From Pseudoxanthomonas sacheonensis (GTDB lineage: Bacteria; Pseudomonadota; Gammaproteobacteria; Xanthomonadales; Xanthomonadaceae): 64,000 bases of DNA. The notes below the pieces were generated by a model. It worked only from the letters and a program-made list of their open reading frames with translations, did no database searches and was not told where the DNA came from. The stretch spans positions 124,001-188,000 of the forward strand of contig NZ_PDWS01000005.1 of NCBI RefSeq assembly GCF_010093305.1. Direction: 5' to 3'. This document shows, in pieces, positions 62,329-62,765 of this stretch (the first letter of the stretch is position 1; each line of letters starts with the position of its first letter). Position numbers and translations under genes: made by a program.

Positions 62329-62765
62329 GGGAATGGGGAATCGAGAATGGGGAATAGGGGAAGAGCCGACATCATGCATCTCCGCGTTTGTTGAGCACGT
62401 TCATCAAAGCCGTCAGCTTTGCAAAGATCAAGTCGATATATTCATCGAGCCTGGGTGATGCGCTTGAATAGCCAAGCCGATTTGCTATTTGGGTTTGAGT
62501 AGCTATTTCCGAAAGAGAGCCGCGAGCGATTGAAAGAAAGCGCAAGTACTCCGGGGTGGAACGGCGAGCTGCGCCTTCTGCGATATTCGAAGGGATGCTG
62601 ATCGCTGCGCGCCTGATTTGCGAAGTGAGGCCGAAACGTTCGGAATCCGGGAAGGTATCGGAAATCTTGTAGATCATTTCCACTAGCTCCATGGAATCGC
62701 GCCAAACTTCCAGGCGCTCATGCGGCCGCTTCGACGATTCCCCATTCTCCGTTCCCGATTCCCGG
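62329..62765. mobile_element. Small unit with terminal inverted repeats carrying a four-helix-bundle gene
   Basis: The left end GGGAATGGGGAATCGAGAATG... (62329-62357) and the reverse complement of the right end (62737-62765) agree at about 24 of the first 27 positions. The unit starts right at the accC start codon and ends 3 bp from the accB stop, so it fills the whole intergenic space. Inside lies one S23/IVP-family gene. There is no transposase. Mobility is inference from the ends and the cargo. Confidence 0.6.
62372..62692 (-). CDS. Four-helix-bundle protein (S23/IVP family), start codon uncertain
   Basis: At least 106 residues from the first ATG, with the family core FGLTSQIRRAAISIPSNIAE followed by GAARRSTPEYLRFLSIARGS and a last helix. 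The family is known from intervening sequences of 23S rRNA genes and from stand-alone intergenic genes; the related Avd protein works with diversity-generating retroelements. The frame continues upstream through RPHERLEVWRDS, which looks like the true N-terminus, but has no ATG, GTG or TTG there. The codon just before RPH is AAG (62729-62731), so an ATG-to-AAG loss of start is possible. It may be inactive, use CTG at 62713, or start at the internal ATG. Confidence 0.75.
   Translation of the reverse strand: MELVEMIYKISDTFPDSERFGLTSQIRRAAISIPSNIAEGAARRSTPEYLRFLSIARGSLSEIATQTQIANRLGYSSASPRLDEYIDLIFAKLTALMNVLNKRGDA

Follow-up and report, generated by a model that had tools for sequence, protein, structure and literature searches.

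The window analysed here is a 64,000-nucleotide stretch of the Pseudoxanthomonas sacheonensis genome. On its minus strand, two genes of the fatty-acid operon, those for biotin carboxyl carrier protein (accB) and biotin carboxylase (accC), are separated by a gap of 440 bp, which the sequence reading divides into 5 bp followed by a 435-bp unit (62329-62763) carrying a gene of the S23/IVP family (PF05635). Features of the gap and its neighbours are collected in Table 1. One end of the unit adjoins the accC start codon (62326-62328) directly; the accB stop codon lies at 62769-62771. A repeat search and a script recount place the inverted arms at 62329-62355 and 62737-62763, complementary at 24 of 27 bases, and the complementarity stretches to 44 bp at a lower identity of 77%. 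The inverted ends described in the original prediction are therefore real, with the edge at the accC start codon where it had been placed, and the distance from the accB stop codon is 5 bp rather than the 3 bp given there. Overlooked at that time was the internal structure of the ends, each arm being made up of four heptads of the form GGGAATN in which the seventh base is free.

Table 1. Features in and around the accB-accC gap, with positions in the window.
Feature	Position	Strand	Evidence
accB, biotin carboxyl carrier protein, upstream neighbour	62769..63245	-	TIGR00531, 167.7 bits
5-bp remnant GCGCC (coding strand) between accB stop and unit	62764..62768	-	sequence reading, junction table
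5' arm, heptads GGGAATC GGGAACG GAGAATG GGGAATC (coding strand)	62736..62763	-	sequence reading, repeat search, script recount
S23 start codon site within the arm in most accB-accC relatives; ACG here	62750..62752	-	locus comparison
Inner box GTCGAAGC adjoining the 5' arm	62728..62735	-	comparison with short pairs
S23/IVP four-helix-bundle gene, 106 aa from first ATG	62372..62692	-	PF05635, 105.8 bits; TIGR02436, 108 bits
Stretch GGCTCTTCC (coding strand) ahead of the 3' arm	62357..62370	-	sequence reading
3' arm, heptads GGGAATG GGGAATC GAGAATG GGGAATA (+ strand), adjoining the accC start	62329..62356	+	sequence reading, repeat search, script recount
accC, biotin carboxylase, downstream neighbour	60961..62328	-	TIGR00514, 762.2 bits

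As predicted, the S23 gene is the only gene between the arms (PF05635, E=1.8e-30; TIGR02436, "four helix bundle protein"), and it reads in the same sense as accB and accC. Its conserved coding sequence continues in frame upstream of the first ATG and into the 5' arm. In 41 of 49 accB-accC loci, the S23 start farthest upstream (ATG, GTG or, in one case, TTG) precedes the conserved part by 30-36 bases, and in the loci displayed it falls inside the heptads, at the place where the window copy reads ACG. The third heptad prefers GAG or GTG in S23 units of the GGG types (33 of the 37 off-consensus left-arm heptads), a preference that is absent from 14 short pairs of the host genome and that we attribute to the start codon located there. 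The GGCTCTTCC stretch resembles, by eye, the right inner box of the short pairs described below. An in-frame ATG upstream of accC, at 62377-62379, overlaps the end of the S23 gene; a start at this codon would add the residues MHDVGSSPIPHSRFPIP across the heptad arm, and translational coupling is possible.

Allowing at most one mismatch, the pattern GGGAATNGGGAATNG finds five matches in the window, all of them within the two arms (0.12 expected), and 107+104 matches in the whole genome, where the reversed pattern finds 1+0. The ends thus belong to a real genome-wide family (211 matches vs. 1). A chance or low-complexity origin is ruled out by these counts together with the control positions described below (0 of 320). 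The host genome contains a single PF05635 gene, and most copies of the ends in it lack this cargo. The 35 loci parsed, from 100 of the 211 matches listed, yielded 28 inverted pairs, 62-201 bp long and lacking S23, and 11 arrays for which no partner was detected. A typical short pair consists of a run of GGGAATN heptads, a variable middle, and then an inverted run; exactly four heptads are detectable on both sides in 13 of the 28. An A[AG]GC box, picked post hoc after inspection of the pairs, occurs no more than 16 bases inward of the arm: on the left in 17 of 28, on the right in 14 of 28, and on both sides in 9 of 28, where chance predicts 0.14 per side. The same box is found inside the 5' arm of the S23 unit.

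The gap between accB and accC is a recurrent location. It holds the S23 gene for 38 of the best 80 GTDB S23 homologues, mostly from Lysobacterales by record titles. Among 38 genomes of the genus (the accC start of one, G009, being extrapolated), 11 carry an S23 unit in this gap and 21 have a gap of 8-10 bp, so that clean empty sites do exist among relatives, as anticipated. Three others have a 138-144 bp pair of GGGACC heptads without S23, and three have other spacers of 62-93 bp. The site is empty in G029, the nearest relative by its accB and accC flanks (96-97% identity). Comparison with the empty alleles at accB-accC and at a second location, site X, reveals no target-site duplication. A recent single insertion is ruled out, as many genera have the arrangement and several S23 lineages occupy the site. 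Of the earlier proposal of a once-mobile unit that entered the operon, the empty sites and the movement of unit and ends independently of the host genes (see below) bear out the mobility; the recurrent use of the site by several S23 lineages shows that a single past entry is not the whole story.

Several smaller observations concern these sites. The accB 3' end recurs as an inverted copy of 12-14 nt between accB and many GGGATT units, and also ahead of some GGGAAT and GTGATT units (L040, L042, L066, L072, L076, L105, L127 and others). At codons 2-3 of accC (62320-62328), occupied G000 and G024 read CTA GAT and empty G029 and G037 read CTC GAC; the CTA GAT start is not general, since atgctc opens accC at five further GGGAAT units in the genus. 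Flanks at two sites of L150 are too diverged, and the relatives gave no clean junction. At the second of these, L150 and its relatives (L205-L234) have heptad pairs of differing types between two genes, and the spacer of other congeners resembles a simple hairpin by eye.

The GTDB set used for a broader survey was the best 80 of 552 confirmed S23 homologues, of which two were dropped for short flanks, leaving 78 tested. An inverted-repeat score of at least 16 together with a period of 7 in both arms is found at 55 of 78 S23 loci, compared to 0 of 320 control positions taken from the same loci; 23 of 78 fall below this joint threshold. Such ends therefore frame the same S23 cargo elsewhere, across phyla, in support of the original interpretation. 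In strongly periodic arms, with ties counted, the best lag is 7 for 105 arms, twice that (14) for 17, and either 8 or 15 for 3. The heptads are mostly G-K-G-A-N-N-N with lineage-specific letters, with other forms or none at some loci; two S23 loci of the genus, L138 and L139, show no such heptad ends. Plasmid records with an S23 match number 31, of which 25 are cyanobacterial; no phage record has one. In a set of 14 plasmid loci that includes two nearly identical pairs and no control positions, 9 pass both thresholds, all cyanobacterial, and 5 fail. At cyanobacterial plasmid loci, the S23 gene lies in a cas10-cmr3 cluster (L312, failing), in a cas6-cas4 cluster (L301, passing), and among ribonucleotide reductase genes (L302, passing).

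Heptad type follows the S23 lineage and not the surrounding genes. Trees were built for 49 accB-accC loci, one genome being present twice (L043 comes from the genome of L130), and heptad classes were assigned by script from the consensus. On the S23 tree, heptad type requires 4 changes (shuffled mean 20.0, minimum 14); on the AccC tree, it requires 22 (shuffled mean 20.0, minimum 16), which rules out vertical inheritance of one unit as the source of heptad type. The AU test rejects the xAAT types as one clade on AccC (p=3e-5). These types form one side of the S23 tree with a support of 89, a branch that is not starred in trees that are weakly resolved overall (a star on 9 of 45 inner branches). 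With DNA trees of the flanking sequence (47 rows), the number of changes is 21 for bases 1-60 and 22 for each of 61-180 and 181-480, against a shuffled mean of 20.2 in each case, and the tree of accC bases 481-1200 gives 18 against 19.2. On an 80-locus S23 tree spanning many phyla, heptad class changes 14 times (shuffled mean 46, minimum 40). The predicted mobility finds support in that unit and ends move independently of the host genes, heptad type being unlinked to AccC and to the nearest 60 bp. Because heptad type tracks S23 rather than the flanks, and because the units of sister species differ, unit and ends travel together, with boundaries near the ends.

Two pairs of sister species document this difference. 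Between G015 and G001, identity is 97.6% for accB and 99.6% for accC, and 66.3% for the unit; between G034 and G035, the values are 96.7%, 97.2% and 65.0%. Over an alignment of G015 with G001 that covers about 135 kb, all five GGGAAT pairs of G015 that can be placed in G001, the S23 unit included, face GGGATT-type arms, although at two of the five one or both arms are too degenerate for the array test of the script and were read by eye. Switching is not seen at the remaining arrays: one GGGATT array agrees between the two genomes; one G001 GGGATT array lies opposite a degenerate GGGATT-like stretch in G015, another single G001 array has no clear G015 counterpart, and three G015 GGGATT arrays have no anchor in the alignment. 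In G034 and G035, the S23 units differ in type and one short GGGATT pair is common to both. From 16 to 1200 bp outward of the five switched sites, flank identity stays at 97.3-98.5% in every bin; in the alignments, a few outer bases are altered too. Site X is empty in G023 and G028. The interiors of some short elements at the same site in sisters are partly similar by eye, a pattern as compatible with rewriting or exchange of alleles as with insertion.

One explanation for these data is that the unit is an old resident of the accB-accC gap whose versions are swapped by homologous recombination through accB and accC arms, the heptads forming just a hairpin. The site is common to many genera, and the inverted accB-end copy, found beside units of several of them, is what a single insertion that spread would predict. 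At site X, the G015 arms resemble those of G007 and G021 and so look orthologous. S23 and AccC distances are weakly correlated (Mantel r 0.27, reached in 0 of 999 permutations), and some shared S23/AccC history remains. Ordinary recombination tracts, however, would drag flanking sequence along, and this disfavours the explanation: heptad type is unrelated even to the nearest 60 bp, at 21 changes against the 20.2 of chance, and flank identity is undiminished beside the five switched sites. We regard it as unlikely.

The heptads of a genome also match the S23 type resident in it. Counts of four heptad types over 38 genomes, with the S23 loci that lack heptads (L138 and L139) left out, agree with the resident S23 type to an extent reached in 0 of 5000 permutations. 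Counts are less clean for the type whose control pattern, GGARYGA, is partly matched by its own repeats, and the GGGAAT count of 217 in G001 is inflated by a single array of about 98 units. At least ten heptad matches are present in 17 of 20 genomes with S23, compared to 8 of 18 without (p=0.016); since these 8 S23-free genomes of the genus keep their heptads, the ends persist without S23.

The arms and the protein both show signs of constraint. Over 48 loci, heptad positions matched between the two arms are position 2 (0.81 observed, 0.56 expected) and position 5 (0.89 vs. 0.43), while position 7 is unmatched (0.42 observed, 0.42 expected). Seventh-base matches in the 14 host short pairs number 19 of 56, for an expectation of 0.335. 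Stem pairing as the sole constraint is disfavoured by this free seventh base; because position 7 is unmatched and position 5 is matched, recognition of single heptads, beyond pairing, is favoured. Purifying selection acts on the S23 gene in all 10 pairs compared (dN/dS 0.06-0.19, with dS saturated in two). The sole PDB sequence match to the protein is XCC0516 (2gsc, E=2.6e-43, residues 1-105), which we take to be the X. campestris S23p toroid structure. That protein is described as a homopentameric toroid (PMC4990558, citing Lin 2006). Taken with the co-inheritance of S23 and heptad type, the pattern of constraint suggests that S23 recognises the heptads.

A reverse transcriptase was sought as a possible partner acting in trans, and this candidate is rejected for the host, whose draft genome has no PF00078 match. 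A partnership with a retroelement like that of Avd finds no support here for the same reason. PF00078 likewise has no match in G001, G007, G015, G021, G022, G024 and G034, mostly drafts. It is present in 13 of the 38 genus genomes, among them G028 and G035, which carry accB-accC units and have one or two.

The closest known counterpart is the S23-coding intervening sequence (IVS) of 23S rRNA. In Coxiella burnetii, the IVS is described as 428-444 nt long, with a 28-bp terminal stem, an S23 gene, and tandem GACAGAT heptamers just before the S23 start; it is excised by RNase III without ligation, and its S23 gene is decayed and probably not expressed (PMC4990558). The same source gives the function of S23 as unknown and lists mobility among the hypotheses for the IVS. 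The accB-accC unit is alike in having one S23 gene in 435 bp, complementary ends of about 28 bp that fold in RNA, and tandem heptamers at its 5' end. It differs in lying between the protein genes of an operon rather than in rRNA, in its GGGAATN heptads, in its dispersed relatives without S23, and in the switching of types at a fixed site.

This likeness is one argument for a role confined to RNA, in which the unit would be an intervening sequence of the mRNA whose heptad stem is cut by RNase III, with S23 serving in transcript handling or stability and having no part in movement. The build is that of the RNase III-excised Coxiella IVS (PMC4990558), the RNA of the unit folds with its arms paired (z=-3.2, with 0 of 100 shuffles as stable), and S23 shares the sense of accB and accC. 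Such a role leaves unexplained both the dispersed pairs that match the S23 type and the replacement of units at the same site, and we consider it quite improbable as a full account.

The heptads themselves have been described before. GGGNATC repeats are reported from Xanthomonas and Nostoc, and two Xanthomonas genomes contain 70 and 75 convergent inverted pairs of them; in vitro, repeats of GGGAATC fold into quadruplexes, with a preference for four units; the repeats are generally not found with mobile elements, and no role was found for them (PMC4692102). The term S23 is absent from the main text of that paper. The repeat, the preference for four units and the inverted pairs are the same here, whereas in our genomes the pairs frame S23 genes and match the S23 type. 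A GGG tract is not present in every heptad, the type in the window having it in most. That the heptads are simple repeats kept for DNA quadruplexes or regulation, an idea discussed for Xanthomonas, with S23 adjacent for unrelated reasons, is very hard to credit despite the in vitro quadruplexes of four GGGAATC units (PMC4692102), since the GTGATT, GTGAAT and GTGAGG types have no GGG tract and frame S23 likewise, and since S23 and heptad type co-segregate.

Two other classes of repeat invite comparison. Like MITEs, the elements are short, contain no transposase, and have terminal inverted repeats dispersed in many copies; unlike them, they end in runs of heptads that each have a free base. No target-site duplication was seen against the empty alleles at accB-accC and site X. 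The inverted heptad ends at nine cyanobacterial plasmid S23 loci presumably correspond, by name, to short tandem heptamer repeats (STRR); their heptads differ from those of the host. Another heptamer repeat is described in PMC4679880. In literature represented by titles and the openings of abstracts, with subscription papers poorly covered, we found no report that joins S23 to dispersed heptads. The expectation of a little-described class has to be qualified, as the S23 IVS has the same build (PMC4990558) and GGGAATC repeats are known (PMC4692102).

Our preferred reading, which we consider rather probable, is that S23 and its heptads form an exchangeable package, built like an IVS, that moves between genomes and reoccupies the same sites, with its boundaries at or near the arms. 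The data establish the ends, the joint inheritance of S23 and heptad type, exchange at a fixed site without its flanks, purifying selection on S23, and the match of types across whole genomes. Units may insert afresh, replace older units or have their arms rewritten. The short pairs without S23 are best taken as non-autonomous relatives needing an S23 of the corresponding type. The protein, presumably a toroidal pentamer like its X. campestris relative, would bind heptads one by one, on DNA or on the transcript, and binding could render the arms prone to annealing or cleavage, allowing an old arm or unit to be replaced by a new one. More tentatively, and at somewhat less than an even chance, S23 might be the recognition protein of a form of mobility free of both transposase and reverse transcriptase: acting on ends of its own type, it would replace units, rewrite arms and convert the heptad set of a genome, and the IVS and the Xanthomonas and cyanobacterial repeats would be one system.

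Two puzzles are joined in this way (PMC4990558, PMC4692102), with the heptamer repeats as ends and S23 as their cargo and probable partner. Sister species show heptad/S23 elements exchanged at fixed sites, and this suggests a class of small, exchangeable DNA elements that is little understood. The question of what S23 and the heptamers do is now directly testable with one protein, short oligonucleotides, and genomes from sister species or experimental evolution.

Two genomes of the genus show further heptad arrangements. The G001 array, at contig C1 326878-327564, is made up of GGGAATC heptads, about 98 of them, all on the same strand. On contig C1 of G033, at 13014-13539 and 139290-139761, GGGACCC heptad clusters with spacings of about 72 and 90 bp look like tandem copies of an element.
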